64,000 nucleotides of DNA from Aristolochia californica. Its lineage: Eukaryota; Streptophyta; Magnoliopsida; Piperales; Aristolochiaceae. The position numbers were made by a program, and so were the translations under genes. The stretch spans positions 32,456,908-32,520,907 of the forward strand of contig JARWKL010000002.1 in assembly GCA_029961685.1 (NCBI GenBank). Direction: 5' to 3'. This document shows positions 23,595 through 56,613 of this stretch, in pieces. How positions within the stretch are numbered: position 1 is the first letter of the stretch; each line of letters starts with the position of its first letter. Below the pieces are notes generated by a model, which was given only the letters and a program-made list of their open reading frames with translations, searched no databases and was not told where the DNA came from.

Positions 23595-23921
23595 TGTTAT
23601 GCATGCAATAATAATATTATTTTAATTGTTTTTCCTTAATTTACTTTATTTTATTTCAGTTAAAGAATTAATAGGCCATAGGGGTATTTTTGTAATATTT
23701 TATCTTAAACCTTGTAAGGGTGAACCCTATTTAAGGGGTAAAAGGAATGCGAAAGGGCAAGCATTGATTTAGGTTAAAAAGGGTTTTGAGTTCTCCTCAA
23801 TGAGCTCAGGGTGTGCGTTCTCCTTAACGAACCTAGGGTTTTCAAACTTCCATTTGGCTTGATCTATGTCTTCCTCTTCTTCCTCCCTACGAATCCATGT
23901 GTCAGATCCGGGACCATAACA
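23595..23921 (+). repeat. D element 5' LTR
   Basis: 327 bp from TGTTATGCATGCAATAATA to GGACCATAACA. Its partner is 29017-29339; a reverse relative is at 54728-55067. Near its end, CCTCCCTACGAATCCATGTG is shared by all three. Confidence 0.85.
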
Positions 23922-24041
23922 ACTGGTTTCAAAGCAGGAACACAATGGGCTATTCTATATTAGGCTATTCTATATCCCAAGAAAAATGGATGGCCATACG
24001 CGAAGAATTGGAAGAAATACGTGCATCGTTAGCAGCTTCCA

Positions 24042-24494
24042 TTGAACGTTTTGAATGAGAGAAACTCGTTGTCGGAACGAAAGGCAACAGATGCTCTCTC
24101 AGACGGGAATCCTCAACTCATTGCTACTATAGATAAAATCGCTGCTGCAGTCGCTGGAGACGCTATCTTAGATGAGCGGGAGACGCAAGAAATTAGAGAG
24201 CCCTCTGTATCTCCAACGACGGCGACATCCGAAATTGGGGATTCAGAAATTCCAAAATTGGAAGGGTATTCAGCACACCTTTCGATGGAAAATCCAGAAT
24301 GGGGTTCGACATCAAACCCTTTCTCACTGGATGTCATACGTCTCCTCGAACAAAAGACGCATGAAATCCGAGAGCCCTCTATCTCAGAAAAACTCCCCAA
24401 ACTTCAAAAATCAAACGGCGGGGACCCCCATTTTTTGAAATTGGAGTGGTATTCCACAACCCCTTTCTCATGGGAAGCCACACGTCTTCAATAG
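24042..24494 (+). CDS. D element leader frame with internal duplication
   Basis: A frame of 150 residues downstream of a short Gag-like stretch (MAIREELEEIRASLAASIERF in another frame at 23991-24053). It contains a repeated block: ETQEIREPSVSPTTATSEIG, then after about 57 residues KTHEIREPSISEKLPKL, matched by a DNA repeat of about 170 bp (24178-24348 and 24349-24490). I do not recognise it. It may be a degenerate leader or Gag substitute, and whether it is translated is unknown. Confidence 0.4.
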   Translation: MNVLNERNSLSERKATDALSDGNPQLIATIDKIAAAVAGDAILDERETQEIREPSVSPTTATSEIGDSEIPKLEGYSAHLSMENPEWGSTSNPFSLDVIRLLEQKTHEIREPSISEKLPKLQKSNGGDPHFLKLEWYSTTPFSWEATRLQ

Positions 24495-24507
24495 GTGACG
24501 AAAAAAA

Positions 24508-24829
24508 ATGGCACTGGATGATTTGGGTGCGACCTCAAATCCGATTCATCCCCGATTTACTATTGTTCACCATCCGGCAAAGGTAGACGACAGAGCGGAT
24601 CGAACACTGGGAAAGTGGAAACGGCGACCATCATGGGGCCTCTGTCTTTGCAAATCATTTATGCGGGTTCGAGCTACCTCCGTCTCAACAAATCTGTTTG
24701 GCCGTCATTCAGAGGGTCGACCTAAACCCTCCAAGTGTGGAAATTCAGAGTCGACACCCAGCGTCGTGAAATCCGAAGTCGGGGAGACTGAAAGTTCCTG
24801 AGCCGAGAAGTTCCATGACAAATTCCGGC
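24508..24829 (+). other. D element internal DNA, uncertain open frame
   Basis: An open stretch of 97 residues starts at 24508 with no recognisable domain. It has scattered Arg, Pro and Ser, and may be shuffled captured DNA. No counterpart elsewhere in the window was seen. Confidence 0.25.
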
Positions 24830-26120
24830 CAGATGCCTCTGCTATTCATCATCTAGGAAGGCTTCCTCAGGTAGTTCTTCTCAGTGATGACGGGGCTGGG
24901 AATAGGAAAGCACAACAAATGAGAACAATTGATTTTGTCGTGGAGAGTGTGGCCTTGATGGAAACAAACACTTCTGGAACATTGATTCTCGTTCGGCCAT
25001 GGCCACAACAGGACGAGGACTCTGATGGTGGTGTGAGTGAAATCGCCTGGCGTGTCCAAGAGATGAATTTGATGTCACAGAAGAGTAGGTGTAGTGCCTG
25101 TTCGTCAAGAACAATGGATTTCCAATTAAAAGGTCCAATGTGCATGTTCCATTATACATCACAAGAGGTAAGGACTGCTTGTTTTATTAAAAAAATGCCC
25201 AAATCTACCAGAAATTGGAATCAGCTTTTACCTCTCCTTTTCAATTGCTGTCCCTGAATAAATTACCTGTTGGAAGTTGTTTTGGAATTTCTGGAATGTG
25301 TTGGAGGGAGATGAATACTGTTGATTATGGGATCAAACAAATTGTAACTCTTATGTTTGATACAAGGACGAGCAGAAAGGGGGAGTATGGGATGTCTGTG
25401 CCCAGAAGTCTTATTGAACAGGGGAGGGTGAGAAGTTCTTCATCACATGCCATTCTTGAAGATATTGCTGCTCGGGCACTGTTAGTGGAAGTGTTTCATT
25501 TCAGTGGGAGTTCAGCATATGTGAAGGGGATAATATTTTTTTGGGGATTCGGGGATATCTTGCATCACTGGGGTTCTTCTAAAAATTGGTATGTGCTGCT
25601 GCTATTGAACTGCATCAACCAGTGCTGCCACCAGTGGCACTGCTGAAACCAGTGCTGCCAGCGAGCCAAGCAAACAATGCTGCTGTGGCAGTCCGGCATA
25701 CATTGCTGCTAGGCAGCCAAGCCAAGGGGCTTCTTGAGGATGCAGATGACTATTTTAGCAATCAAGGCACTAAACCAGAGTGTTGGAATAGGGAAGTATG
25801 ATTCAGGAACTCTTACATTAGCAGGTGCTGAAGTTGATTGATCGGTGATTGGCGTAGTGAATTTTTTCTGCTCATGGTCTGGATTTGAAAGGTCAAAGGT
25901 GAGTTGTATGCTTCGTCCTATTAATGAGATGGAAGATATTTTTCAACAGGACCACAATGAATATGAAAGAGCCTTCAGTCTCGGTTGTACTCCTTTATTG
26001 CTCTCATTGACCTCTCGCATGGTCAATAAGGGTGCTCGATTGCTTTTGCCACTAAATGGCTCCAATACTGCTACAATTGCTGTGTTTGACAATGAAGGGG
26101 TTGATAAGTTCCGTGCAACT
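24830..26120 (+). pseudogene. Captured gene-like sequence 'gene X', copy 1
   Basis: This non-retroviral coding-like DNA is also present, diverged, on the reverse strand at 34981-36735. Shared residues include LKGPMC, the ACFI block, GISGMCWRE or GISGMCWRN followed by GIK and TLMFD, and GSQAK before LLE. At DNA level both copies share a TTAGCAGGTGCTGAAGTTGAT block. Stops and frame changes occur throughout. It lies between LTR-element leader and chromodomain tail in the sense direction, so it is cargo and not a resident gene. I do not recognise the parent protein. Confidence 0.55.
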
Positions 26121-26149
26121 TTACCAAAGGGGGGGCCACCATGAGGGGC

Positions 26150-26385
26150 AATCTCACACTAGTCCAGGACTGATGGACGGTAGAGATGCTACTTGGGGAG
26201 ACGTGGCAATGTTTGGCACACATCCCTACATTCGACCTCAAGAAAAAAAATTGCTGCTAGGGTGGAATGCTCCAGTTTTGGGCATCCAGAGGGCGGATAC
26301 AGTTACCGTGGATGATACTTGGGAACAGTTGGAGCCGTCTACTTACAACCCTACCTTCAAGCTTGTGGACAAGCTCTTTCTCCCA
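26150..26385 (+). pseudogene. Two decayed chromodomain tails of D element
   Basis: First, DATWGDVAMFGTH near 26170 followed in another frame by PTFDL. Then GIQRADTVTVDDTWEQLEP and FKLVDKLFLPGG. Both resemble the Pol C-terminal chromodomain ends seen in gypsy-1 and gypsy-C. They suggest that D descends from a chromovirus and kept only the sequence next to the purine tract. Confidence 0.6.
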
Positions 26386-26405
26386 GGGGGGGGGGGGGGG
26401 GGGGG
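26386..26405 (+). promoter_or_regulatory. D polypurine tract, 20-G run
   Basis: Twenty consecutive G followed by TATAA and then the inserted B LTR at 26411. It is the place where plus-strand synthesis would start in D. Confidence 0.75.
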
Positions 26406-26995
26406 TATAATGTGTTGGAAGATAAGCTCAAGCAGACACGACCAAGGAAGGCCCACATATATAAGATTATTATAATATGAGCCACACGACAAGGAAGGCC
26501 CACAAAATGGGCCCAAGCCCATAAGAAGTAGGACCCATAATGATTACCATGAGCTGGTATCCTTATCACATCAGTTGGAAGATCAAGAAGGACTCACAAA
26601 AGTATCTTATCTTATGGCCACGTCAAAGAAGAGTTTTAGTTTGAGTTATGTTTTTATTTTATCTATATTGAGTTATTTAATTATGTTAGGACTTATCTTT
26701 AAATGTTAGAGTTTGGGTGTAATTGGGACAAGGGTAGTTTTATTGTAATTGGACTCTACTACCTTCCTCTATTATAAATAGAGGTTCATGTACTCTGATT
26801 ACAACAAGTTATTGATGTCAATGAAGTATTAGAGCAGGTTCTATGAGTTGACTTGGTCAACTCACTGAGGTAATGTGATCCTTTTATCTAAACCCTAAAC
26901 CCTAAGTCTAGGCTTGTAGTTATTTTTTTTAGTCCCTATACCCTTAGTTTGGTTGCGTTTTTCTCCTCTATAATTATTTTTTATATTTAAAATAT

Positions 26996-27690
26996 ATATT
27001 TAAGGAAATATATTTGAGTCTACTTTCCAAAGAAAACCTATTTGTTCTAATCGGAGTTATCTATAGAGAGATATCGATATTTGAATGAGCGAAGGTCAGA
27101 TTTCAAAAAGGTTTGAGCAACAGCAGAAATCTTCAGATTCTGAGGTATTTTTTGCTATCAAGAACTAGACTTTATATGGATAAATATATATAAAAAATAA
27201 ATATCTGTAAGTCTATTCATTTACCTATTCAACAAATGTTTTATCTGAGTTATCTACAAAGAGAAATCGATATTTTAAGTAGCAAAGGTTAGATTGAAAA
27301 AGAGGTTCAAGCGACAGCAGAAAGCTTCAAATTCCGGGTATTTTATGCTATCAAGAGAGAGAATTTATATGGAGAATTATATATAAAAAAAAGATACTTA
27401 AGTCTATTTTCTCACCTATTCAACCAATCCTCAGTATAATTTTTCTACAAGGAGATATTGATCTTTGAAGAGTTAATGGTCATTCTGGAAAAACAGGCGA
27501 AACAATATTTAGTTCGGCCAGATGACAAAGACCGAAATATATCAGATTATTTATCTCATAAAAATTATATTTTATGAAGTGAACTTATACTTTTATAAAA
27601 TATATTTAAGTCTAGGTTCAGACAAATAAAATTTCATGTCAATTGGATCTATATTTAAAGAAATATTCGCATTGGATGAATCAAAGGTCA
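26996..27690 (+). repeat. Diverged tandem repeat inside B, about 180-220 bp, 3-4 units
   Basis: Units begin near 26996, 27181, 27362 and 27583. Each carries variants of AAGTCTATT..ACCTATTCAA, GAGTTATCTACAAAGAGA, ATCGATATTT, CAAAGGTCA, CAGCAGAAAGCTTCA and TATGCTATCAAGA. Divergence is high and no reading frame is shared. Confidence 0.65.
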
Positions 27691-27699
27691 TGCTAGTAT

Positions 27700-28578
27700 T
27701 CTATTGTATTGAAAAATCCGATTTTTTACCCATTTTTTTGCGTCACTTTTTGAGTTGATATATTAGAAAAATATCTCACTTCTCCCTGGTTTGAGGGCTT
27801 ATCTATGCATCTCTGTTATATGGGCTTATTGCTATATCTATGATATTTGGTTCAAGCTGGGATCACTGCCATTAACTCCTAGCTTGAGGGGGAGAAGTAG
27901 AAAAAGTACAAGAAAGAGGTATTTTATTTTATATGCTGAGAATAAGTTTATGTGACCAAAATATTCAAGAAAGGGGAGCACAAAAGATGAAGCTTGTGCA
28001 TATAAGAAGAAATTTTTATATCAGATTATTTCATGGGTTCTTTTACAAAGTTTATTATTTGGTTCGTGTTATATGTGTTGGAAGATGGTTGTGTTATATA
28101 CAGTTGTTGCTATTATGTCTCTTTGGGGACCTTATTTCTTGGGTTCTCTTTCGTGTTATATATCACATTGGGAAATCATGACGGAAAAACTTATTATTAC
28201 ATCAATGTAATCCTCCCCCCCCCTCCGCCCTCTCCTCCATCGTCCTCTCCCCCATGTAATGGCTTTTATGTCTCCTACCACTTGAGAGTCGTTGTCCTAT
28301 GGAGGGATACAGTGGTGGACACTTAAGAGAAATACCGATAGAAGACGGAGTGTGCCCTACATCCAACATGTTGACTGGAGATGAAGCAATGACTTACCGG
28401 CTAGGAGTGATTTTTACTCTCACTTATATAATGTTGTTGGGCCTCATGGAAGGACGCAACAACGTGAGGGGGAATGTTGGAAGATGAAGGCATATTGGAA
28501 GATATGCCATTTAATACAAAAATATTTTATACATCATTTTCAGCAAGCTGTTCTCTCACCCCCAGCTTGAGGGGGAGT
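27700..28578 (+). other. B element non-coding 3' region
   Basis: It contains the blocks shared by all B copies: CTTGAGGGGGAGAAG near 27881, a CCTCCCCCCCCCTCCGCC pyrimidine tract near 28211, GAGAGTCGTTGTCCTATGG, TTTTACTCTCACTTAT, and two GTGAGGGGGA/CTTGAGGGGGAG blocks. Open stretches near 27933-28490 show no domain and are not conserved between copies. Confidence 0.6.
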
Positions 28579-29013
28579 GTTGGAAGATAAGCTCAAGCCC
28601 ACACGACCAAGGAAGGCCCACATATCTAAGATTATTATAAGATTGGCCACACGACAAGGAAGGCCCACAGATGGGCCCAAGCCCATAAGAAGTAGGGCCC
28701 ACAATGATTACCATGAGCTGGCATCCTTATTACAACAGTTGGAAGATCAAGGACTCACAAAAGTATCTTATTTGATGGCCACGTCAAAGAAGAGTTTTAG
28801 TTTGAGTTATGTTTGTCTTTTATCTATATTGAGTTATTTAATTATGTTAGGACTTATCTTTAAGTGTTAGAGTTTGGGTGTAGTTGGGACAAGGGTAGTT
28901 TTATTGTAATTGGACTCTACTAACTTCCTCTATTAGAAATAGAGGTTCATGTTCTCTGATTTCAACAAGTTATTGATGTTAATGAAGTATTTCACTTTTC
29001 CATAAATTCAACA
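28579..29013 (+). repeat. B element 3' LTR
   Basis: 435 bp from TGTTGGAAGATAAGCTC to AATTCAACA, with TGTTG/CAACA ends. The closest relatives are 26411-26830 and the reverse copy 56614-57054. Confidence 0.9.
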
Positions 29014-29016
29014 TAA

Positions 29017-29339
29017 TGTTAGGCACACAATAACATTATTATTTTAAATTTTTTCTTTAATTTAATTTATTTTATTTCAGTTAAAGAATTAATAGGCCAC
29101 AAGGGCATTTTTGGATTATTTTATTTATAGGGGTATTTTTGTAATATTTTATCTTAAACGTTTTAAGGGTGAACCCTATTTAAGGGGTGAAATGGCAAGC
29201 ATTTGAGTTCTCCTCAATGAGCTCAGGGGTGTGCATTCTCCTTAACGAACCTAGGGTTTTCAAGCTTCCCTTTGGCTTGATCTTCGTTTTCCTCTTCTTC
29301 CTCCCTACGAATCCATGTGTTGGATCCGGGACCATAACA
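29017..29339 (+). repeat. D element 3' LTR
   Basis: TGTTAGGCACACAATAACATT to GGGACCATAACA, 323 bp. It is separated from its purine tract by the B insertion. Confidence 0.85.
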
Positions 29340-29344
29340 TGAAG

Positions 29345-29654
29345 CTTGAAAACCCTCAAGCTCGTTTAGGAGAACTCAAACCCTCTGTTTTGACCTAAAT
29401 TCAGACTTGTCTCTTTTCATTCCATTCCCCCTCTAAATAGGGTTCATTTCCACAAGGTTCAAGAGAAAATTAAAATTTTGCCCCTCCATTGCATTTAACC
29501 TGAAAATCAAAAGGTTCAAGGGAAAATTATAATTTTGTCCCTCTATGGCATTTAACTTAAAAAGTAAACTAAATGACTAAGTAACTGACCCAGCCAGAGT
29601 AATCGACTCAGCCACAACGTCTACATGACTCGGATTGTTGTTAGGTTCATAACA
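29345..29654 (-). repeat. D' LTR (reverse), part right of D insertion
   Basis: It resumes the LTR cut at 23594: CTTGAAAACCCTCAAGC, then CTAAATAGGGTTCA. Its last 80 bases (AACTGACCCAGCCAGAG to GTTCATAACA) are nearly identical to the end of the 33887-34864 LTR, so it mixes D-like and E-like parts. TTAC and a new LTR start follow. Confidence 0.65.
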
Positions 29655-29658
29655 TTAC

Positions 29659-34867: not shown

Positions 34868-34889
34868 CCCCCCCCCCCCCCCCCCCCCC
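34868..34889 (-). promoter_or_regulatory. Polypurine tract, 22-base homopolymer
   Basis: 22 C on the plus strand, so 22 G on the element strand, three bases from the 3' LTR. Confidence 0.75.
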
Positions 34890-34980
34890 TGGAGAACGAG
34901 CTTGGCCTCAAACTTGAAACGATGGAGGCGCTGTTTGAAGAGTCGATTGTCTTCATGGGTGCAGCCGTGGTGGTCTCACC

Positions 34981-36735
34981 TTAACCAAGCCGAGCCCATT
35001 GCTCTTCCAGCACTCTTGCAGTGAATGGCATAAGTGGGAACTGCTGACTCATTTCATTGAATAGAAACCATGACGAATCCAATTCAACATGCCCTAGAGC
35101 ATGAAAAAATGAGTTTTCCATTATGGCATCTCCAACTGTCAGCTCCATACCATATCTTCCAGAGAGATAAAAAAACTTGTTCACTAGACAAAGAAAGACT
35201 AGAACTATCTCAAACTTCTTGCTGGAGCTGGCAACAATTTAGATAGGTTGGATGTTGCTCTCAACTTCAGGCCTATTTATCACTAGGGACATTAAACCTC
35301 CCAGAAGTTACTACAGAAAATGATGTGAATCCTTGAACTACAGAAGACGTGGTAGACAGAGGGCTTTGATGTTCCTTGGCATCAATAAGTTTCTCATCGA
35401 AATACAATGCCCCATCATCATAACTTTGAATGCTGTCATAATTTTCCACATGGTTCGAAAACAAAGAGTATGATGGCAACATGTGCATGAATACTTGTGT
35501 CAAGATTGTATATTGACATTCTTCAATGTGAATGACTCTCTCATCATAGTGATAAAGTAAGAGTTACCTTGCAAGATTCTCTTCTTTTACAAATTGATCA
35601 ACTTCAGCACCTGCTAATTTAAGAATTCCTGAAAATATGTTTCAAGTGCTACCCTGATGCATAAGCACTAGATTCAATACCACTGGAATCATACTTTCAT
35701 TTTCCATCACTCTGGCTTAGTGCCTTGATTGCATGAAAATAGCCATCTCCTTCCTCAAGAAGCACCTTGGCTTGGCTGCCTTGATCCTTAATAAGAACCA
35801 AACTACCAATATAGTGGTAGAAGTCAGAGAGTAAAGTTGCATCCTTCAGAACTGCGTGAAGCTTTGAAGTGATTGCCTAAAAAATTTTGTCATCAATATT
35901 CCAATTCAACATGCTACTGAAGTAGTCCTATGCACTAGAAGATGACAATACAATGGTCTCAACAACAATAGGGCATGTTCCTGGGCTTATATCAGCACTT
36001 TTCTCTACACAAAGAACTTGAAGTGTCCTCAACACTTCATAAGTTTCCTCTAGGCTTCCAAAAGATCCATCGATCGGAGCAAACAACTTCAATGCAGTAG
36101 ATCAATGCTCATTTGACTCTGGTTGGAAGATGCCTTACAGACAGTCAACCAAATAAATAGAACCAGAAGATCGAGGTTTCTGGCCAATCTGTGTCCACCA
36201 TTCTTACCGCAAAACAACAACAAGTATTTGGTCTGCTTCATCAAGCACCAGATAGTGACTTCACTTAATTGGAGGTCGTTACAATTAATCAAATCAATTA
36301 TACAGTCTGGTTTGCTTTTCAACATCATGTCAGTTTCAATATCTCCAATACTTCTGAGCACAAAAATCCAATACTCCACCCTTCTTTCAGGTCTTTCATC
36401 AAACATAAGAGTGAAAATTTCTTTGATCCCAGTATCAATGTCCTTCAGATTCCTCCAACACATTCCAGAAATTCCAATAGAACTTCCAGCAAGCAAATTA
36501 CTCAGAGACATCAATTGAAAAAAGATATGTATCAAAAGCAGACTCCATGTTCTGGTAAGTGTTTGTCACATTTTCAATAAAACAGGCCATCCTTATCTCA
36601 TGTGGTGTATACTGTAACTTGCACATTGGACCTTTCAATGTGAATTCCATTGATCTTGACAAACAGAAACTGCACATACTCTTATGCAATAGCAAATTCA
36701 TCACCTGGGCACGCAGAGTAGGCATCTCCTTTAAC
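34981..36735 (-). pseudogene. Captured gene-like sequence 'gene X', copy 2
   Basis: In order on the reverse strand: SMEFTLKGPMCKLQYT (about 36640), GISGMCWRNLKDIDTGIKE with IFTLMFDERPERRVEYW and SIGDIETDMMLKSKP (36089-36500), GSFGSLEETYEVLRTLQVL (about 36050), VVETIVLSSSSA then DYFSSMLNWNIDDKIF (about 35900), DFYHYIGSLVLIKDQ, LAGAEVDQFVKEEN (about 35600), ERVIHIEECQYTIL (about 35530), and MNKFFYLSGRYGMELTVGD (35184-34981). There are several stops and frame changes. It reads like a long helical, soluble host protein. I cannot name it, and no Pfam-type motif is evident by eye. Its diverged partner is 24830-26120. Confidence 0.58.
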
Positions 36736-43229: not shown

Positions 43230-43393
43230 TGTTATGGTCTTGGGGTTAAGTACCTATGTCTTCCGCTCCTTACAGGCCGGTCTTTTGGGTAGTATTGGCT
43301 AGGTGCTTAACATTTAAGCACCTAGCCAATACTATCCAAAAGACGAGCCTGTTAGGAGCGGAAGACATAGGTACTTAACCCAGGACCATAACA
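43230..43393. repeat. Palindrome: two 83-bp LTRs end to end
   Basis: The forward LTR (43230-43312) ends GTGCTTAACA and is followed at once by TTTAAGCACC, the reverse copy, to 43393. The junction is exactly CA joined to TG with one base (G) lost. The two arms, about 82 bp each, can pair almost fully as a hairpin. Confidence 0.88.
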
Positions 43394-43760: not shown

Positions 43761-44209
43761 TGTTAGGTTCTTCCCTTGCCATGGATCGAGTCACCCTTCT
43801 TTCCTCTCTTCCCTCCATGGATGATCTTGACGTTGGAAGAGAATTCTTGTTTCTTGAACGAGTAATGGTGGAACTCAATTAGAACGAAGGAGCTTTGGAG
43901 GAAGCTCAACCTTGGACCTCAAAGGGAGAAATCCAACCTAGACCTCTGAGGGAGAATCTGACCTATAAAATATAATTTTCTCAATCCTTGCCTCTCTTCT
44001 CATTCACGTCCCCCTAAATAGGGTTGAGGACGAAAATACAAAGATGACCCATAGGTCAAGTGGTTCACGCCACATTACACTGAACCAACCCAAAGTGAAC
44101 CAAACCAAATAAAGTAAACCAAACCGAATTGAAATTACATGAAAAGTAAATTGACATAAATTAATTCTTATGCCTATGGATAACTCGTGATGCTATGGAG
44201 TCCATAACA
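43761..44209 (-). repeat. Gypsy-4 3' LTR
   Basis: 449 bp, related to but distinct from the LTRs of gypsy-1, -2 and -3. On the reverse strand it carries both the Pol tail (DVMDSIASRVIHRHKN) and the Gag start (VTRSMAREEPNI), as in the others. Confidence 0.88.
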
Positions 44210-45360: not shown

Positions 45361-47194
45361 ATAATCAGCTATACTGCACTTCATGCCCCTCCAATAAAAT
45401 TCCCTACTGATCCGGAAATATGTTTTTTGTCGGCCCTCATGTGTACTGTCATGGAAGGAGGCTAAAATGCTGTTAATCAGAAGGGATGTGTGGTGTAGAA
45501 AAATTCTGTTTTTTTAGAGGACGAGATTGTCCTGAACCCTCCAATGGTTTGCCGCTGTCCCCTGCTGAATGTCCTGGCATAAGAAGATAATATCCGGGTA
45601 CTGTTGTGCATCTTCCCGTATAGAATCCAACAAGAGAGCTTTGGGCTAACTGATGGCATTTAATTGCGGCTCTGGAACGTCCCGACGAGATAAGGCATCA
45701 GCCCCGACATTCAAACTTCCCGGTTTATACTCGACAGAAAAGTCAAACCCCATAAGCTTACTTAACCAATGCTGTTGTGTTGAAGTAGTGAGACGCTGCT
45801 CAAGAAGATACTTGAGGCTGAAATGATCAGTACGAATAAAAAAAGAACGTCCCCATAGATAAGGGAGCCAATGCTATATAGCTTTCACCAATCCGATCAA
45901 TTCCCTCTCATAAGCTGCCAACTTGACGACTAAAATAAGCAATCGGGTGGCCCTGTTGGTGCAACACTGCGCCAATACCACCCCCCGAAGCATCACATTC
46001 CACTACAAACGACTCCTCAAAGTCGGGGGGCTGCAACACTGGGGCTGATGATAAGGCGTCTTTCAATTGCTGAAAGGAATGAGTTGTTGTCTCTGACCAG
46101 GTAAAAGCATTTTTCTTGAGGAGATTGTTGAGCGGAGCTGCAAGCTGGCCATAGCTACAAATAAATTTTCTATAATATCCAGCTAGGTCCAAAAATCCTC
46201 TTAAGGCTGTAATAGATGTAGGAATAGGCTACTCTGTGACCACCTGTATCTTACTCTGGTCTACCTTCACCCCTGCTGCTGAAATAACGTGGCCCAAGTA
46301 TGCCACTTCTGATGTGCCCATAGAACATTTTGACCGATTTAAAACCAAAAGATGTGAGCGTATAAGAGAAAATACCTGGTGAAGGTGCTGAAGATGTTCT
46401 TCCCAGCTGTTGCTATAGACCAAAATATCGTCGAAAAATACCAATACATTTTTTCTCAAGAGAGAGGAAAATACCTCATTCAAGAGGGCCTGGAAGGTGG
46501 AAGGCGCATTTGACAGACCAAATGGCATTACAAGGAATTCAAAATGGCCGTGATGCGTGCGGAACACTGTTTTCTCCACATCTGATGGATGAACTCGGAT
46601 TTGATGATAGCCAGATTTCAAATCGAGTTTAGTAAAAATAGTAGCTCCATGGAGCTCGTCTAACAGCTCGTCCACCACTGGAATAGGAAATTTATCGTTA
46701 ATCGTATGGGCATTGAGTTGTCGGTAATCCACACAGAACCTCCATGACTTATCATGCTTGTGGAGTAGTAATACCGGTGAAGAAAAAGGAGACCTGCTGG
46801 GTTGAATAATACCCTGTGCTAACATCTGCTCGCACTGCCTTTCAATCTCATCCTTCTGTAAGTGAGGGTAACGATATGGATGCACCACTACCGGCTCGGT
46901 ACCCATTTTCAAATGGATACGGTGATCACAGTGCCTAAGTGGCGGTAAGGTAGTAGGGTCTTGAAAGATATCTTCAAATTCTGTAAGTAAGTGAGATAAC
47001 TTACATGTGTTTGTGGACTGGACCTGGGCAACCTGTAGTGAGTAGGTGAGTGGTGCTTGTGTGCCATGCAATATAATCTGATGTTGGTCCTCTATAAAAG
47101 ACATCGTTAGAGCTTGGAAATCCCATAGTATTGGTCCCAACAATTGTAGCCATTTAATCCCTAGCACCAAATCGAATCCTGATAGTGGAATCAC
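45361..47194 (-). pseudogene. Gypsy-4 RT and RNase H
   Basis: The RT is open at 46229-47194 with [42 protein letters not shown] and YLGHVISAAGVKVD. A stop (W to TAG) near 46230 and frame changes near 45905 and 45530 cut the RNase H ([15 protein letters not shown], then YIKLLGQ-like remains) into pieces. Confidence 0.85.
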
Positions 47195-48611
47195 CAGAAA
47201 ATCTGCAACAAATGCATATCCTTCAATATCAAAGTGTGTGGCTGGTGATATGCCTACACTAGTAATTTTAGCCCCATTGGCTACTGATACAGAAACACCA
47301 GTCTGTTGTTGTACTAGTAACCCAAGTTATTTTGTCGCCTGTTGACTAATGAAATTATGTGTACTGCCCAAGTCAACTAAAGCCAGTAACTGTAAATGAT
47401 GTAATTGGGCCTTAACCTGCATTGTGCTTGAACTACGTAGACCAGTCATAGCATGAAGGGAAATCTCTGGACCTTCTTGGTCAGTTTCCACAATTTCCTC
47501 CTCTGGTGGTATTTCTTCTCCATCCTCCCACAGACATATACTGAATAATCGTTTGCAATGGTGTCCAATGACATACTGTTCATCACAGTTAAAACAGAGG
47601 CCCTTGGCCTTTCTCTGGTCCATTTCCTGTCTAGTAAGTTTTTTGAAGTAAGGAGCAGGTGGAGCCGTATTAGAGATGTCTGGGCGTGGGGCTGCACTAT
47701 CTCTAAATCTTGGAGGTCCATAGGAAGGGTTTGGCGCTGAGGCATTGTGCCTCCCTGGCCAAGCTGGTTTTCTGACCAGTGACTCCTTTAGAACATGCTG
47801 CTTGTGCTCAATTGCCCTGGCAAAATTCATAGCGTGGTCTAAATCTGTAGGAGCATGTAATTCAACTTCTAATCGCAGAACTTCTGTCAAACCAGCAGTA
47901 AAAATATGAACATACTGTGTGTGGCTAACAAACTGGTTTGCTCGGGCTAACCTTTCCTGGAAGGTCTTTTGGTACACCTCTAGTGTTCCAGTTTGTTTGT
48001 AATTGATTAATTCTCCCAATGGGTTGCTACTAGCTGGAAGACCAAATCTCATCATGCAAGACTATCTAAAAGTTGTCCAATCCTGAACCACTTGGTCATT
48101 TCGGAATTGGTGGTACCATAGAAGCGCTTCATCGAGCATGTGGTAGGCGGCCAAATACACTTTCTCATCCGCAGGTGTTTTTTGATGATAAAAGAACTGA
48201 TCACACTTAGCTAACCAAATCAAAGGGTCCTTAGACCCATCATACATAGGAAATTCAAGTTTTAAATACCTGGGCACAGTGTTTGGTCCTTGAACGGCAG
48301 GCCCCAGATGGGGATGATGTTGACGCATTGGTGGTTGTGGGGGAGGTGGTGGGTGGAATTGATGGTGGTCGGCCTGTGGAGAGTAGGTAGCTGGTGGTTG
48401 GGCGCATGTATCATGGTCCTCTTGTCGCTGGAGGACAGCTTGGATGGCCGCATCCATTGATTTTATTGCTTCACGCAAATCAGAGGCTGTTTGATGCACC
48501 TCTTCCAGGGCATGAGCCTGGTTATCTGTCCTTTGCCTAGTATCTTCCACTAACTGTCTCAAATCGTCAGGGGAAGAGGAATCCCCAAGGGTGGACCTGT
48601 CTGATACCAAA
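47195..48611 (-). pseudogene. Gypsy-4 Gag, zinc knuckle and protease
   Basis: Gag N-terminus (48610-48062) with SDRSTLGDSSSPDDLRQL and a proline/histidine-rich linker; a stop near 48060; then Gag capsid, zinc knuckle CFNCDEQYVIGHHC and protease VDLGSTHNFISQQ in one frame (48055-47327). The protease DSG is DLG here, so the active site is damaged. Gag, knuckle and protease share one frame, as in E. The LTR-encoded Gag start is lost because a short LTR replaces the 5' LTR. Confidence 0.86.
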
Positions 48612-48694
48612 TGTTAAGCACCTAGCCAATACTACCCAAAAGACCGGCCTGTAAGGTGCGGAAGACATAGGTACTTAACCCCAGGACCATAACA
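48612..48694 (-). repeat. Short (83-bp) LTR, 5' LTR of element 2
   Basis: TGTTAAGCACCTAGCC to CCAGGACCATAACA, followed by TACCC (48695-48699), the outer TSD. Confidence 0.88.
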
Positions 48695-48699
48695 TACCC

Positions 48700-49540
48700 T
48701 TACGTGGGGTATCAAATTTTATGAGTTGGTCCACATCGGTTTAGAGGCTCCTTCTAACAAAAGACCTACTTGGTAACCTCACCACCCGTGGACCACCTAT
48801 TGATGAATATGATATTTTTTATATGAAATGGCTGAAAAATGATACTTTGGTAATTAGTTGGCTAATCAATAGCATGGAAGAACATGTCTCTAATAATTTT
48901 ATTCATCTGGACACTACTAAACAAATTTGGGAGACATGTGCTAAACTGTACTCATGCCCGGATACACTACATAGACCCTATGATATTCTCCAAAAAATGT
49001 TGAATACTAAACTAGGAGAAAATATTCATGTGTACTTGGCCCACTTTAGAGACTTTCTTCAAGAGTGGAAGTTAGCTCAGCCTTCAACCGCTAATGTTTC
49101 TATCCAAGACAAACAGAAGGAAGCCTTAATTACTGCTATTTGTCTTGCAAATGTTAAACCTCATCTCGAGATTGCCAAGAGTCAAATTTTGAGTGCTTCT
49201 ACTGTCCCAAACTTTGATGATGTGTGCGCAACACTACTTCATATTCCAGACACTTCTTCCTCCACTACTGACGTATCACTTGCTATGTATTCCGATTGTA
49301 GAGGATCATCATCTGACAGCAGCCGTGGCCGAGATAGAGGTTATAAAGGGGGTAGAGGAAGAGGTGGAAGGACTGGTGGTGGCTGATCAGATGGGAAAGA
49401 AGATACCAAGTGTACTCATTGTAAATATTTTGGCCACACAATAGATCAATGCCTTTACAAGGCATGCACTTACTGTGGAAAATATGGCCATTATAAAGAA
49501 ATATGTTATAAAGCCAAAGAACAACCAGAATTGACAAGGG
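48700..49540 (+). pseudogene. Copia-G Gag with zinc knuckle
   Basis: It continues the Gag frame cut at 37754. KWLKNDTLVISWLINSMEE, then TTKQIWETCAKLYSC, ENIHVYLAHFRDFLQEWK and a Gly/Arg-rich stretch (GRDRGYKGGRGRGGR) fit a copia Gag (UBN2-type). A stop at 49384 precedes the zinc knuckle region, read as CTHCKYFGHTIDQC followed by a second CTYCGKYGHYKEIC. Two stops lie near 48780-48800. Not functional. Confidence 0.85.
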
Positions 49541-49955
49541 CTAATCAAGCCTTTATGAGTGATACAAAAGAAGAACATCTCACAAAATATGCAACACAGA
49601 AAAATATTATTGATGAAGAGTATGAACTTTTTCAGAAAAAGAAGACAATGCTAGGTTCTTCTCCTAGTTCCTCCTCAACTATTGCTGCCACTATCGCTTT
49701 AGGTATGCTATCTGCCTCATCTTCATCCTGGATAATTGACTCAGGAGCCTTCGAGCATCTTACAAGTAACAAGTAACAAAAAATTATTACATTCTCTATC
49801 TCTGAGTCTTTCGCATAATTTTGTTACCATAGTTGAAGGTTCTCAAACCAAAGTCCAAGGGAAAGGTTCCACTTCTATCACCCCATCACTTCCGCTCACT
49901 GATATTCTTTTCTTTCCTACTTTTCCTTTGAATCTATTATTTTTTAGCAATTGAC
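49541..49955 (+). pseudogene. Copia-G protease region
   Basis: SSSSWIIDSGAFEHLTSNK carries the D-S-G of the copia aspartic protease near 49735. It is followed by a small duplication (TTACAAGTAACAAGTAACAA) that causes a frame change, then HSLSLSLSHNFVTIVEGSQT and KVQGKGSTSITPSLPLTDIL. Confidence 0.8.
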
Positions 49956-51030
49956 TAAATATTTTAATTGCTCGGTTACCTTCTCACCCACTTCAAGTGT
50001 CTTTCAGGATTTTATAATGAAGCAGGTGATTGGTGAAGGCCATGAACAAAGGGGCTTTATTACTTGGACGTGCCAAATATCAATATGGTTTCTACTACTA
50101 AAAATGAGACATGGTTATGGCACAATTGGTTGGGACATCCTTTTGCACAGTCTCTTCATTATATATTTTCATCTCTTAAAGTAAAGTCAGAATTGCATTG
50201 TGAGGTTTGTCAATTGAGTAAACATCAAAGGAGTACATACTCTCCTCATCTAGAAGTCAAAAGTGTCACTCCATTTCCGTTAATTCATACTGATGTTTGG
50301 GGGCCCTTGAGTGTTTCTAATATTTCTCAAGAAAAATATTTTATTACATTTATTGATGATTTCACTCGCACAACTTACTTGTTTTTCTTTAAGGAGCGTT
50401 CTGAGATACTATTCATTTTTAAGTCATTTCATGTAATGGTACTCACACAATTTGGTCAGAAAATAAAAATTTTCTGGTTTGAATATATTTCCAAAGACCT
50501 TGACTCTTTTTGTCAATAAAATGGCATTATCCATCAAACGACTTGCGCCTACACTTCTCAAAAAAATGGTGTAGCTGAAAGAAAAATTGTCATATTCTTG
50601 AGGTAGCTCGAGGTTTATTATATGCCATGAAAGTTCCATACTTTTATTGGCCTCATGCCGTCCTTACGACCTGCTTTCTTATAAATCATCTACCATCTAC
50701 TGTTCATGGTAATAAGTCTCCTTACTCTAGATTATTACTGAATGATGATCATTTTCCTTACCGTTGAAAGTCTTTGGATGTCAATGTTTTGTTCATAATT
50801 CATTACCTAGACACAACAAACTTGATCCTAAATCTATCAAGTGTATCTTTTTGGGATACTCTCACACAGAAAATGGTTATGTTTGTTATATTTCTACTCT
50901 TCAACATTTATTTGTGTCCAGGGATGTAACATTTTTTGAAGACTCCTCATTTTATTCTGATAGCACTCCTCTTGGTATGTCCTCAGTACCAAGTTCCCCT
51001 CGACTTGTTGTGCCTTGTGATACATAGATT
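49956..51030 (+). pseudogene. Copia-G integrase
   Basis: The zinc finger is LWHNWLGHPFAQSLHYIF with CEVCQLSKHQRSTYSP. The core has HTDVWGPLSVSN, ITFIDDFTRTTYLFFFKE and, after a frame change near 50520, an HQTTCAYTSQKNGVAERK-like stretch. Then MKVFGCQCFVHNSLPRHNKL and the C-terminal GYSHTENGYVCYI, SRDVTFFEDSSFY. Several frame changes and stops. Confidence 0.85.
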
Positions 51031-52200
51031 ATTCAACCCCCATAACAAGTGGCCGACACCACACCTGCCGAGTTAACAGATCCACCAGAGGTAAGTCCTT
51101 CATCACCAGTTATTTTTTGTCCTCACTATGATACTTGTCCTATTGCTATACGGAAAGAACCTCCATCATGCACTCAACCTTCTACTTCTCATCCTTTTTC
51201 AAATTTTTTGTCTCATCATCGCCTCTCACCTTTATGTTGTCATTTTATTTCTTCTATTTCCTCCTATTTGTTCCACAGTCATATCAGGAGGCTCTACAAC
51301 ATCCAAGGTGGAAGGTAGGAATGGATGAAGAAATGAAGGAACTTAATGACAATCATACACGGTCACTGGTTCCTCTTCCCACAGGTAAAAAACCCGTTGG
51401 TTTCAAGTGGGTTTATACTATCAAACATAATCCGGGTGGGTCAATTGCACGACTGAAGGCTCAACTGGTTGCCAAAGGTTATACTCAGTGCTATAGAATT
51501 GATTATGAAGAAACCTTCTCTCCAATGGCAAAAATGAACTCATTACGTATATTATTATCTCTGGCAGCCAATTCATCATGGCCGATATATCAACTGGATG
51601 TTAAAATTGCATTTCTTAATGGTGATATTAAAGAAGAAATTTACATGCACCAGACACCTGGGTATGTGGTTGAGGGGGAGTCCGTATGCCGTTGAAAAAA
51701 TCTTTATATGGTCTAAAACAGTCCCCTCGAGCATGGTTTGAGAAATTTAGTCAAGCCACCATACGGGCTGATTTTCACAGATTCTCTGTAGATCACTTAG
51801 TATTTATTGAAAATACACTAAGAGGTAAGGTGACTCTGGCTGTATATGTTGATGATATTATTTTAACTGGGAGCGATTATGAGGGCATTCAGAAATCAAA
51901 GGAGAAAATATGTGCTGAATTCAAAAAGAAGAATCTTGGATTACTCAAATATTTTTTGGGTATTGAAGTATTACAATCTAGACATGGGATTGTGCTATCC
52001 CAAAGGAAGTATGCCCTTGATCTACTAGAAGAAACATGAATGATGGGATGCAAACCAGCAGACACTCCTATGGACACAAATACAAAATTATGTGGAGGCC
52101 CTGGAGAAATAGATATTGGGAAATATCAAAGACTAGTGGGATGACTGACTTACCTGTGTGTAACAAGGTCTAACATTTCATACGCAGTAAGTGTGGTAAG
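51031..52200 (+). pseudogene. Copia-G reverse transcriptase
   Basis: SYQEALQHPRWKVGMDEEM, GFKWVYTIKHNPGGSIARLK, KGYTQCYRIDYEETFSPMAK and YQLDVKIAFLNGDIKEEIY lead to SLYGLKQSPRAWFEKFSQA after a frame change at about 51690. The active site VYVDDIILTGSD is at 51845-51880. A stop near 52037 and others follow. The catalytic YVDD is intact. Confidence 0.88.
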
Positions 52201-52207
52201 TCAATAA

Positions 52208-52794
52208 TTGCACAAGCTACAACTTAGTCATTTGCAAGCACTTGAAAGAATACTACGATATCTGAAAGGAGCTCCTAGAAGGGGGCTTCTCTATAAAAAC
52301 CATGGTCACTTCAACATTGAAGGGTTCTCAAATGCAGACTGGGCCGGATCCCCGGATGATAGAAAATCTAATTCGGGATTTTGTACGATGGTTGGAGGGA
52401 ATTTGGTTACATGGAAAAGAAAAAACCAAAATGTAGTAGCACGGTCAAGTGCAGAAGCAGAATACAGAACCATGGCACACACTGTTAGTGAACTCATATG
52501 GATAAGATCTCTTATGATTGAATTGGGATTCTACAAAGAAGCTCCAATAGATCTATACTATGACAGTCAAGAAATAATACACATTACATCGAATCCAGTC
52601 TTCCATGAAAGGACAAAGCATAGTGAAGTGTATTACAATTTTATATGAGAAAAGTTCCAATCTGGTTTCTTATCTCTGAATCATATATCATCACAAAATC
52701 AAGTTGCAAACATTCTCACCAAGCCAGTGACTCACAAGATTATATCTACCTTATGCAGCAAGCTAGGCATTTATGATGTCTTCTCACTGCTCAA
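52208..52794 (+). pseudogene. Copia-G RNase H
   Basis: ILRYLKGAPRRGLLYKNHG, GFSNADWAGSPDDRKS, RSSAEAEYRTMAHTVSELIW and SNPVFHERTKHSEVYYNFI, with a stop near 52646, then ISSQNQVANILTKPVTHKI to KLGIYDVFSLLK. The purine tract and the first LTR bases are missing right after CTGCTCAAG. Confidence 0.88.
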
Positions 52795-53369
52795 GTTGGT
52801 GGGACCCACCATGAGGACGTGGGACACTAAGAAGAGTCCTCACCCAAGCAAGCACGAGTCAAGGAATTAAGAAGCACAAGCTGAATTGAGTTAGAAGACT
52901 TGAAGTTCAAGTGGGACCCACAAATATCTCACGAGTTGTCAACCTTATCAACATGAGCTGGAAGATCATGAGGGACCCACAAGAATAAGGCTACGAGCTG
53001 GCCTTCTCACTTATATTCACGTGAATGAAGCAATAGTCCTAGTTCAACTCATATTAGGCTTCTAGTAGATTGGTTTGAATAGACTTATCTTAGAGAGTTA
53101 GAGTTGGAATGTAATTAGGATTGAAAGGCTAATTGTATAAGGACTCTACCTCATCCTCTACTATAAATAGAGGTGTTGTAAGTCGGAATAAATCAAGTTA
53201 CACATCTCAATCTCGAGTTACTGTCTCTCTCTCTCCCTTTGTTTGGTTCAACCTCTCTTTGCTCTTTTAGTTTTTCTTCTCTCTACCGAAGAGCTCTTCT
53301 TCCCTTTTCTTCTTTTTCTTTATTCTTTCTCTTGTTCGGAATTATAGAAAAGGGATCGTAAATTTAACA
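52795..53369 (+). repeat. Copia-G 3' LTR, first bases deleted
   Basis: GTTGGTGGGACCCACCATGAG to TAAATTTAACA. Compared with the reverse relative at 62929-63561, the purine tract and about 37 LTR bases are missing. The join lies between similar CTCAAG and CTCGAG hexamers, consistent with deletion by short homology. The TATA box is at 53162-53169. Confidence 0.85.
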
Positions 53370-53639
53370 CTACTCATTCTTCACTCAAGTGTCCAAGTGA
53401 AAAATCCAAATCCAAGAAACTCATTAAAGAAAGGCCATGTGCATTTCTAAAAGGTTCTTTGAAGTCTAATTCTCCAAGGGAAGAATCTACTGAATTTTGG
53501 ACAGCTTCACTTGCAGTGACCTGTGAGTGGGTTTTTTGTTGATTTGCTCTCGCTCCTGTAGAGAAAGATCTCATGAATGAGTTCGCAAGCTTGGCTAAAC
53601 TATTCAAAAGAATTAGGATCCAAGTGTCACTCTTGTGAT
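53370..53639 (+). other. Unidentified sequence, possible gene-like fragment
   Basis: One plus-strand frame reads CPSEKSKSKKLIKERPCAF, LKGSLKSNSPREESTEFW and later VEKDLMNEFASLAKLF with one stop. The opposite strand is also partly open, so coding is doubtful. It lies between the copia-G LTR and a gypsy Pol tail, a position like that of the captured sequences in the D-type elements. Confidence 0.3.
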
Positions 53640-53808
53640 TTCATCCACTGATGCAACTGATGCTAGCCGTAGAACGTTGAACATACTTTTGGGGATCTTG
53701 ACTGGATGATGTAGATGATGTGGCTGCCACGTGGGAGGATGTGGAGACATTCTGCCAAGCTACGTTGCCTTCGAGCTTGAGGACAAACTCTTTCTCCAGG
53801 GGGTGTGA
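53640..53808 (+). pseudogene. F gypsy chromodomain tail and purine tract
   Basis: AATWEDVETFCQA, then in the next frame YVAFELEDKLFLQG, ends at CCAGGGGGTGTGA directly before an LTR. It is the same Pol end as in gypsy-1 and gypsy-C, with one frame change. Confidence 0.7.
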
Positions 53809-54205
53809 TGTTATAGACTCAATAGCAGGTCGAGTCATTCAGAGGCGTCATGGCTGAGTCATTGAGTATTGAGTTATTTTCCTTCAATTTATTTTATAAG
53901 TCAATTTACTAGTAGCGTAGCCATAGGGGCAAATTTGTAATTTCTTCCTCTTTAACTCTTGGTGTCGTGAACCCTATTTGGGGGTGAATGGAATGGAAAA
54001 TGGGCAAATCTTGATTTATGTAAACCAAGGAATGGAGTTTTCCTCAAAGAAGCCAAGGATTGGAGTTCTCCTCAACGAACCCAAAGGTCCAAGTTCCCTT
54101 CAACGAATCTGCTCTATCTCCTTCTCTTCTTGTTCTAAATCATAGGACTCAACACTGGATCCTTTCCCACAACGTTGTGTTACAAGATCTATGACCAGGG
54201 ACCAT
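53809..54205 (+). repeat. F gypsy 3' LTR
   Basis: 397 bp, TGTTATAGACTCAATAGCAG to GACCAGGGACCATAACA. Its last third matches 10678-10792, which precedes an F Gag. Both copies border Athila-like DNA on their outer side, so they may be the two ends of one element now spread over 43 kb. Confidence 0.78.
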
Positions 54206-54317: not shown

Positions 54318-54727
54318 TGTTGAGGACTCAATAGCTAACCGAATCATACAACATAGGCACACTGAGTTACAGAGTTAATAGCTTTCTTTCCATATTGTTT
54401 TAAATTCTTTTTTTACCCATTAATTAAGTTAAATTTTCGTAGGGGCAGAATTGTAATATTTAACCCTAAAACTAGGGTGGACGTCAAGCCTACTTAGAGG
54501 GCAAGGGAATGAGAAAAAAAAGGTATGTCTTGAATTAGGTTAAATAGTGTTTGGAGTTCTCCTCGATGACCTCTAGGGTTTGGAGGTCTCCTTGATGAGC
54601 TCTAGGTCCAAATTCCCTCTTGAATCTGAATTTCCTTCTTCCCTATTTTGATTTCTGTTTACATTGATCCATAACGAAGAGGAGAGGGTATTGTTGTCCC
54701 TTTTTTGAGTTCAATCAGGGGCTCCAG
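54318..54727 (+). repeat. Gypsy-C 5' LTR, first part
   Basis: TGTTGAGGACTCAATAGC to TCAATCAGGGGCTCCAG. It matches 61171-61560 closely, including AGGGCAAGGGAATGAGAAAA and GACCTCTAGGGTTTGGAGG. Confidence 0.9.
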
Positions 54728-55067
54728 TGTTACGGTCCTGGATCTGATACATGGATTCGTAGGGATTCTTAGGGAAGAAGAAGAGAAAGACGAAGAGAAA
54801 GACGAAGATCAAGCCAAAGGGAAGCTTGAAAATGCTAGAACTCATCAAGGAGAGCTCCCAACCTGTTTAACCTAAAATCAGTGCTTGTCTTTCTCATTAA
54901 TCTTACCCTTTAAATAGGGTTCACCCTCACATGGTTTACGATAAAATATTATTAAAATACCCCTATAAATAAAATATTCCAAAAATACCCCTGTCATCTT
55001 AAAATGAAAAATTATAATGTAAATTAAAGAAAAAATTAAAATATTAATGGTGTTACGTGCATAACAT
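54728..55067 (-). repeat. Reverse D element 3' LTR
   Basis: 340 bp, TGTTACGGTCCTGGATC to TTACGTGCATAACA. A purine tract (element strand AAGGGGGTGTAA) follows at 55068, so the element interior is to the right. Related to 23595-23921 and 29017-29339. Confidence 0.85.
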
Positions 55068-55188
55068 TACACCCCCTTAGAAGAACGAGCTTGTCTTCAA
55101 CCTTGAAAGTAAGGTCTGTATGCCGACGTCTCCCCCTGTTCCCAAGTAGCATACGTGGGAACTATGTCCGCCCTTTGGACGCCCAAAA

Positions 55189-55500
55189 CTAGAGCATAAA
55201 TCTCCCCCTGCATGGTTTTTCCTCATCACCAACATCAGTAGAAACCCCAGCATTGCATGACCCCAACCAGCTGTTCCTTCTCAAAATTCCAGACAACACA
55301 AGTTGTTGCTCACTGTCCTGAATTACAGCTAACACCTCATGATACGTACATTCCATGGTCTTTGAGATCTCTACCGCTACTTTTGGAAGCCATTTCAGAT
55401 GAAATTGGTCATTAAGTTCCACATTCAGAGGGAAGTGATCACTACGCTGACTGCAATAGTAGAAGCAAGTTGAAATTGCATCATCCTCTCACTTAGAACC
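55189..55500 (-). pseudogene. Unidentified captured fragment next to Hsp110 piece
   Basis: An open stretch (55422-55189, extendable upstream in the same frame to about 55500) reads FHLKWLPKVAVEISKTMEC, VLAVIQDSEQQLVLSGIL and RRNSWLGSCNAGV. It looks like protein and does not fit Hsp70/Hsp110 or any retroelement domain I know. It may be a second captured gene piece. Confidence 0.35.
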
Positions 55501-55635
55501 AATGTCTCGGTAAGACAGTCCTCTTGATAGAACCCATCAACCATAACGGTAATAAAAAAACACCTTCCCTATCATATTTTGCACCAATTTCAGAAACCCC
55601 AAACTGCTAAGAAGTAAATTACAGTATTCCCCCTG

Positions 55636-56600
55636 TCATCCAGGCATTTCATCAAACCACTGCCTGTACTCTTCCAATTTGTTTATCACCTTTGAATGAG
55701 TTCCAACCATACTATCTAGTGGAGCCCCTAGAGGTAATTCATTTGCATTCTCATCTTCACCTTCTTCATACAGCCAGTCTTCCACTTGCTGGTAGTTTTG
55801 CACAAAGTTGTGATACTTGTCATGAAGCTTGTTTCTCATGTCATAAACAGAAGCTTCAACAGTATTCTTCTATTCTTTGGTTTCTTCCATCACTCTGTCT
55901 TGCAAAGCCATCTCAAATTCCTTTTCTACCGCCTTTTGAACATCTCCTTCTGGCAGCATTGCACCATACACCAACTCTGCAACACACTCATTAGCATTCA
56001 TAGTACGCCTTGGTGCCTTTCCAAAAAACTCGGTTATTATCCTAATAATCGCTGGAATATGAGATCCTGATCCTACTACATCAATAGAATTAATGTTTAC
56101 AGTAGTAAGTCCAGATTCCAACAAGGCCTTCTTCAAGCGGGGGCTCTTAACCCTCTCCAAAATAGGAATAGTAATTTGGTCAAATTCATCCCTTTTGATG
56201 AATCTCTTCACATCCTTCTCCTCCAACAAACAATCAATATTAGGAGGTGCCTTTGGTTTTGCACACAAAACCTTCTTCAGCTTCTCACAGGCGGCACGAA
56301 ATCTAGTGCAAGCCCGAGCATTCTGATAGACATCAATCTTAGACTCCTCCTTAAATTTTGCAGTAAAGTGTCGGAACAAACGTCAACGAAGTCTCTTTCT
56401 CCAAGAGAAAGAACAATTGCATGTGCTAAGATCTTGAGCTGACCTTTCATGAATCCCACAATGCATACTTGCATGCTGGCATGATCAACATTCACAAAAG
56501 CAACATTTAACTGATCATTTTCATCTAGGGCCGTGTTATAGATTCCATACGCCAAAGCTGTTGCAGTGGTTTCATGCATGAACCTCAAAGGATGAAGACC
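55636..56600 (-). pseudogene. Hsp110/Hsp70-like chaperone fragment, processed and broken
   Basis: The reverse strand encodes part of a plant Hsp110-type chaperone. First comes the ATPase domain: MHETTATALAYGIYNTALDE, LNVAFVNVDHASMQVCIVGF, GQLKILAHA (56588-56430); after a frame change near 56390 FRHFTAKFKEESKIDVYQ, CEKLKKVLCAKPKAPPNIDC, IKRDEFDQITIPILERVK, VVGSGSHIPAIIRIITEFFG and RRTMNANECVA (to about 55975). It then jumps to the C-terminal helical part (EKEFEMALQDRVMEETKE, stop, MRNKLHDKYHNF, VEDWLYEEGEDE, NKLEEYRQWFDEMPG). The substrate-binding beta domain between them is missing and no intron is visible. The 5' end is cut by a B LTR. Not a working gene. Confidence 0.88.
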
Positions 56601-56613
56601 CGCAAGAGAAGCT

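Follow-up and report, generated by a model that had tools for sequence, protein, structure and literature searches.

What is host-like coding DNA doing inside the ends of retrotransposons? The question is raised by a stretch of 64,000 nucleotides (nt) from Aristolochia californica (assembly GCA_029961685.1, contig JARWKL010000002.1, positions 32,456,908 to 32,520,907), referred to as a whole as the window. Three of its loci, locus 1 on the plus strand and loci 2 and 3 on the minus strand, hold protein-like DNA that is neither Gag nor Pol, in the orientation given in a preliminary description made from the letters alone. Identified in it were ribophorin II (RPN2; PF05817, PF23860) in locus 2 and Hsp70/Hsp110 in locus 3, and locus 1 was recognized by its DNA identity to locus 2. 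The answer, very probably, is that all three are members of a single family of non-autonomous Ty3-type long terminal repeat (LTR) retrotransposons, in which nearly all of gag-pol has been exchanged for fragments of spliced host mRNA.

The backbone of the family

From 5' to 3', the members consist of an LTR, a primer binding site, a leader, the cargo, a relic of a chromodomain tail, a G-rich tract and a second LTR. LTR pairs with TG...CA-type ends are present in 12 of the elements from elsewhere in the genome (designated by L numbers), in L039 and in locus 1. The primer binding site, which we take to be that for tRNA-iMet, resembles TGGTATCAGAGC and lies about 2 nt past the 5' LTR; the G-rich tract precedes the 3' LTR. 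The leader, too, is common to the family, that of locus 1 matching L009-L016, L019-L021, L023-L025 and L027, and it may be a relic of the N-terminal part of Gag. Leader open frames of 185-296 amino acids (aa) occur in L016, L043 and L045 (e.g., L043:1497-2384 and L016:3007-3561); they could be either a Gag relic or captured sequence.

From which type of element does this backbone descend? Between leader and relic, the sense frames of the window loci and of L009, L016, L023, L043, L045 and L046 contain no retroelement domain; gag matches were seen in L024 and L025, within stretches that we read as nested elements, a reading that is not proven. With 82-84% identity over 57-76 bp, the L009 and L016 relics align with the ends of window Ty3 elements that do bear gag-pol (38210-38289 and 44190-44248). 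Judged by these sequences, the family is a derivative of a Ty3 chromovirus that keeps the 3' end of pol with its chromodomain tail.

Copies across the genome

Is the arrangement peculiar to the window? The assembly searched comprises 660 Mb in 521 contigs, and the first-look candidates that were scored amount to 40 of 400 for the locus 2 cargo, 53 of 222 for Hsp70-14, 51 of 115 for zinc finger CCCH protein 24 (C3H24) and 40 of 671 for the relic, all of these being lower bounds. Searching the DNA with the cargo of locus 2 yielded 58 matches distributed over 40 scored places, among them the two in the window. Of 20 places fetched, 13 allowed an LTR pair to be delimited on one strand (one 3' LTR is interrupted and one truncated). 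Kimura two-parameter (K2P) distances lie between 0.081 and 0.123 for 12 pairs from L-numbered loci (one truncated) and at 0.087 for the pair of L039, an element found through Hsp70-14; these 13 elements are 2.3-7.1 kb long, nine of them 3.9-4.5 kb. Target duplications were sought by eye in the flanks of 15 elements, L039 among them. A perfect 5-bp duplication surrounds eight of these (L012, L013, L016, L019, L020, L023, L024 and L039), four of five bases are alike in three (L010, L011 and L027), and two (L021 and L022) gave no readable comparison.

Linkage between cargo and backbone was assessed with 40, 28 and 37 places from the searches with the locus 2 cargo, Hsp70-14 and C3H24, leaving out second rows of one place, parental genes, Hsp70 paralogues and one C3H24 row (C489). 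Cargo (RPN2 or the adjoining piece called X5', Hsp70-14 or C3H24) precedes at least 16 of the 40 scored relic matches at a distance of up to 6 kb and on their own strand; among the cargo places listed, none lies downstream of these 40 on the same strand, and one is on the opposite strand. Because the matches recur in the genome and intron-bearing parental genes were found, the loci are more than the work of chance.

One could still propose that these are ordinary pseudogene pieces beside which LTR elements merely landed. The region is heavily nested, loci 2 and 3 show no 5' LTR within the window, and the LTR-like DNA beside locus 2 is a later insertion. However, a given set of cargo pieces is met repeatedly, in unchanged order, inside matched LTR pairs flanked by target duplications, and both a deletion in RPN2 exon 2 and a jump within the Hsp cargo are common to many copies, which leaves the pseudogene explanation with almost no credibility. 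Flanking LTRs that are unrelated later insertions, an eventuality raised in the preliminary description, were encountered next to locus 2 only. The elements have moved as LTR units, and chimeric interiors have been amplified.

Spliced cargo from several parents

Where does the cargo come from? The parental genes of ribophorin II, Hsp70-14 and the C3H24/TRM2-like protein lie on three scaffolds, C478, C24 and C1, respectively. On C478, GT..AG introns, one of 1.48 kb and one of 107 bp, separate the RPN2 exons (L033, 1-30, 1512-1704 and 1812-1901). In locus 2, and in all 13 fetched elements with matches to both exon 2 and exon 3, these two exons abut directly. In L009 and L016, RPN2 homology begins exactly at the 3' splice site (between TTTTCTCAG and GATTTGCC), 12 nt ahead of the start codon. 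An intron situated at residue 641 of the Hsp70-14 parent is lacking in locus 3 and in L039. The C3H24 parent extends over 14 kb in nine matched pieces; its residues 482-678 form one unbroken stretch in L012 and L016, and the one C3H24 intron checked is missing from L010 and L016. Alignment of cargo with parent, suggested in the preliminary description as a way to detect intron loss, thus had the same outcome at all four intron positions checked in RPN2, Hsp70-14 and C3H24: the cargo is intron-free. To judge by this comparison, the checked cargo comes from spliced host RNA.

A related question is how often a given gene was captured. RPN2 exon 2 has a 15-bp deletion (16 bp in L022) at one and the same position in locus 2 and in all 12 elements checked, so that ribophorin II in loci of the locus 2 kind stems from a single capture and not from repeated capture of one gene. 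The proposal of one group that repeatedly packages cellular transcripts is borne out by LTR-bounded copies, intron-free sense cargo and varied cargo sets, and has to be narrowed for ribophorin II to this one event. The Hsp jump, from about residue 370 to 590, recurs at six places at least, the window included, one of them ending at 361. An intron-free Hsp70-14 piece at G000:C57:7355184-7356200, covering residues 352-693, has limits unlike those of locus 3 and is perhaps a second Hsp capture.

Diversity and orientation of the cargo

Overall, 13 host protein families were matched, in different sets on one backbone, many elements carrying two or three identified host genes. In the sense frames of 10 elements, eight host gene families were found at E<=0.001 (ribophorin II, tRNA-methyltransferase/C3H24 with two Pfam models, ABC transporter, carbamoyltransferase, DEAD helicase, ketoacyl synthase, thiolase and Cpn60), together with two retroelement gag families; the antisense frames of the same 10 gave no host family and two retroelement families only. 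Hsp70-14, RRM, beta-galactosidase, EBP1 and leucyl-tRNA synthetase complete the total, EBP1/PA2G4 and the cytosolic leucyl-tRNA synthetase being carried additionally by L023.

A cargo-blind sample was formed by the five best relic matches without ribophorin II/X5', Hsp70-14 or C3H24 rows. L043 holds an RRM piece and beta-galactosidase; L045, RRMs and a beta-galactosidase piece, the latter under its cut-off; L046, a carbamoyltransferase; L044, the tail of locus 3 and the further piece of locus 1 (25872..26112) around a nested element; and L042 is mostly nested copia. Read by eye, the RRM pieces presumably stem from poly(A)-binding protein, and L046 presumably has a PPR-like piece as well. The antisense scan of this sample used three of the five, L042 and L044 being largely filled by nested elements: the sense frames of L043, L045 and L046 gave three host families and their antisense frames none. 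At L045:1554-3224, an open frame of 557 aa, the longest in the family here, runs from the RRM domains through the beta-galactosidase piece.

Could such cargo have been taken up as DNA, in the manner of Pack-MULEs and Helitrons, or through repair from genomic DNA? Multi-gene mosaics are, as is generally known, typical of those elements. Against this stand the intron-free state of the four checked positions, host matches that are sense only in the tested elements, and ends that are LTRs with 5-bp duplications (terminal inverted repeats and Helitron ends were not searched for), so that capture at the DNA level scarcely comes into consideration. LTR ends, duplications, intron absence and sense cargo together therefore speak for an RNA route.

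Another RNA route is serial read-through transduction, in which transcription would run into adjoining genes, the transcripts would be spliced and the 3' LTR would be regained by recombination. It would likewise yield spliced, sense cargo, and a review calls the capture by the maize element Bs1 a transduction. The three known parents, however, lie on three scaffolds; many elements combine two or three identified genes, in part represented by internal exons only (C3H24 residues 482-678); and a jump with a short overlap connects separate parts of a single mRNA. Read-through is, on balance, an unlikely explanation of the family, and it may have contributed as well.

The three loci of the window

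Located on the plus strand, locus 1 is complete and retains both LTRs. Its 5' LTR (23594..23921; D type, TGTTATG...ATAACA, with a 77% gapped match to 29017-29339) is followed by the primer binding site TGGTTTCAAAGC (23924..23935; TGGTATCAGAGC in several other copies) and by the leader (23936..24822). The cargo consists of X5' (24823..25425, of which 25050-25412 has 77% DNA identity to locus 2), an RPN2 fragment (25711..25871, of which 25711-25804 agrees with RPN2 of locus 2 at 35781-35686 with 87.5% identity and 25804-25871 matches L009) and a further piece with no parent assigned (25872..26112), which occurs also in L010, L014, L016, L044 and L045 and precedes the C3H24 piece in L016. There follow the chromodomain-tail relic of a Ty3 chromovirus pol (26267..26391, 79% identical to 55197-55072), the G-rich polypurine tract (26386..26405) and the 3' LTR (29014..29339), which a nested element breaks up close to its start. 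The LTR pair has a K2P distance of 0.071 over 295 columns, and the insertion, situated inside an older, oppositely oriented LTR, is flanked by GGAAG and TGAAG, four of five bases being alike. The frames of locus 1 gave no Pfam match. The nested element (26413-29013) is itself a 2.6-kb LTR element with TAATG on both sides and no long open frame in the list of open reading frames (ORFs); a relative adjoins locus 3 at 56614-57067, and related LTRs occur in L015, L020 and L044.

Is the cargo of loci 1 and 2 one gene, as first described under the name gene X? That the two share cargo holds good, by the 77% and 87.5% identities just given. A single gene was rejected because the parents differ from segment to segment: gene X is a mosaic of X5', a bit of DEAD-box helicase, ribophorin II and EBP1, and the parts identified match host genes, none of them a retroelement ORF. 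On the minus strand, locus 2 begins with X5' (36285..36735; 88-90% to L017, L018, L023 and L024) and the DEAD-box fragment (36215..36284), which has 86-87% DNA identity to L017/L018, lies within the PF00270 match of L017 and gave no Pfam match in locus 2 itself. RPN2 cDNA from the start codon on, with its introns spliced, occupies 35080..36186 (parental exons in L033 and L040) and has internal deletions plus an unmatched stretch near 35430-35560. The EBP1/PA2G4 fragment (34976..35084) is 90% identical in DNA to L023, whose neighbouring ORF matches PA2G4 at 6.4e-13. The chromodomain-tail relic, read by eye, and the G-rich tract take up 34869..34975.

Separating this G tract from the 3' LTR of locus 2 is a Ty3 element (34864-29659, minus). 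The LTR, of the L2 type and on the minus strand, has its first part at 29340..29654 and its last part, severed by the insertion of the locus 1 element, at 23519..23593; the split sequence (29654-29340 plus 23593-23519) matches the LTR of L023, and its assignment to locus 2 is by position. Upstream, locus 2 is cut by a copia element (36736-53370). A relic, a tract and a 3' LTR had been described beside each of the three loci: they are there at loci 1 (26267-29339) and 3 (55204-54724), and the LTR-like DNA adjoining locus 2 (34864 downward) is the separate Ty3 insertion. Beside the lost 5' side of locus 2, a chromodomain tail, G tract and LTR on the plus strand lie in the opposite orientation at 53719-54100. 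Elsewhere in the window, the Ty3 element at 37820-43048, with LTRs that agree at 99% over 411 bp, is a recent arrival in a population of older insertions.

Locus 3, also on the minus strand, is indeed an Hsp110 piece under a D-type LTR. Its Hsp70-14/15 (Hsp110) cDNA (55747..56613; parent L047/L038) joins residues 160-370 to 577-676 and is followed by a second cargo piece, or tail, with no parent assigned (55205..55746; 87% to L039 and partly in L028, L044 and L045), by the chromodomain-tail relic and G-rich tract (55072..55204), and by the 3' LTR (54724..55069), which is 68-72% identical to the locus 1 LTRs and 81-83% to the L039 pair. Another nested element cuts the locus at 56613. L039 is a complete element whose Hsp pieces and tail are those of locus 3, at 87-88% identity.

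Coding constraint

Do the chimeras serve as genes? Over nine elements of the RPN2 subfamily, codon positions 1, 2 and 3 have 88, 89 and 83 informative sites and 143, 146 and 148 singletons; the alignment takes in 9 of 13 interiors, with L009, L020, L021 and L022 left out for their different cargo arrangement and columns of fewer than five letters skipped. By these counts, and for the RPN2 subfamily only, neither coding constraint nor a maintained hybrid ORF was detected. A maintained protein gene, as argued for Bs1, with a product serving the element or the plant, would agree with a 384-aa frame in L016, with the 557-aa frame in L045 and with differences between Hsp cargo and parent that are mainly at third positions. 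The even codon-position counts in the nine elements, and the stops and frameshifts that break most of the listed frames, make it a very doubtful proposition.

Origin of the mosaics

How, then, could the mosaics have formed? Element RNA would be packaged in particles supplied by an autonomous chromovirus, and reverse transcriptase would jump to a co-packaged host mRNA and back, also within one mRNA. A chimera that retained the terminal signals could transpose and amplify, and later switches could add or replace pieces. Such template switching, followed by amplification of the chimera, is the likely course of events. At the internal Hsp junction, the two sides overlap by six nt, as is expected for template switching. 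Going further, this lineage could be a systematic transcript collector, an RNA-based counterpart of Pack-MULEs in which switching to host mRNA is so frequent that multi-gene mosaics are the rule; for this broader idea, we consider the case evenly balanced.

Several observations weigh against the picture of a mobile family filled with host mRNA. The flanks of L009 and L014, two of the 15 elements read, show no target duplication. No parent of X5' was found with Pfam, PDB and one protein search, and none for the locus 3 tail; the best protein match of the EBP1 piece of locus 2 itself is not significant (E 0.45). The 5' LTR of locus 2 was not found in the window, nor was that of locus 3, for which a further 7 kb past the window gave copia-type sequence and no family feature or Hsp match. 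The Cpn60 match in L016 falls under its curated cut-off, and the strand of L017, the only source of the DEAD match, was assigned from its cargo rather than from an LTR. Differences between Hsp cargo and parent at codon positions 1, 2 and 3 number 18, 22 and 50 for locus 3 and 30, 37 and 78 for L039; the excess at third positions fits constraint on the parent's branch, and some constraint on the cargo may also be present. Finally, the Hsp overlap is thin evidence for template switching, coming from the one junction inspected for microhomology.

Relation to known systems

Which known elements resemble this family? Large retrotransposon derivatives and terminal-repeat retrotransposons in miniature likewise have LTRs, a primer site and a polypurine tract without gag-pol; their interior is anonymous or very short DNA, whereas here it is host cDNA. 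The cargo of Bs1 is said to be spliced and sense. According to a review, Bs1 holds pieces of three host genes between its LTRs and is in this respect alike, an LTR element with several host gene fragments inside. Unlike Bs1 with its three genes, and compared with it by description only, the family described here has at least 40 relic places, many cargo sets and 13 host families, and the subfamily examined for coding constraint gave no sign of it.

Gene fragments in full-length LTR elements are also a feature of maize, rice and sorghum. A maize survey (PMC2774510) counts 425 LTR elements that contain gene fragments, the outcome of no fewer than 189 captures; under its conditions, none combines fragments from two or more standard nuclear genes. 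In the Aristolochia family, by contrast, two or three identified genes per element are common. Many captured genes in LTR elements are likewise reported in a survey of rice and sorghum (PMC3726574). Pack-MULEs and gene-capturing Helitrons, as the review has it, also amplify host gene fragments within an element family; the Aristolochia family differs in its LTR ends, 5-bp duplications, absence of introns where checked and cargo that is sense only in the tested elements. The chimeric retrogenes made by long interspersed nuclear elements in Magnaporthe are alike in fusing two or three transcripts by template jumps, whereas here an LTR element with both LTRs is involved and the chimeras were amplified afterwards.

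No description of a family of this kind in Aristolochia appeared among the papers listed by a literature search, which left subscription journals mostly aside; in the main text of the A. fimbriata genome paper no word starts with "captur", and in that of the A. californica genome paper (PMC11334207) "retrotransposon" does not occur. The preliminary description had taken the group to be undescribed. Gene-capturing LTR elements as such are already known, Bs1 being the example; what seems to be new is a family of multi-gene mosaics.

Meaning for the genome

What is gained from such a family? In the plant surveys consulted, gene capture by LTR elements appears as single events, with one gene per element in maize, and Bs1 is the review's multi-gene case. 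A family with many mosaics makes capture measurable, in its junctions, its microhomology, the transcripts that are taken and the frequency with which this happens. It is also relevant to the origin of retrogenes and of chimeric reading frames, as well as to erroneous gene models in the genomes of magnoliids. If the idea of a transcript-collecting lineage is true, these elements would be an open-ended engine of exon shuffling.

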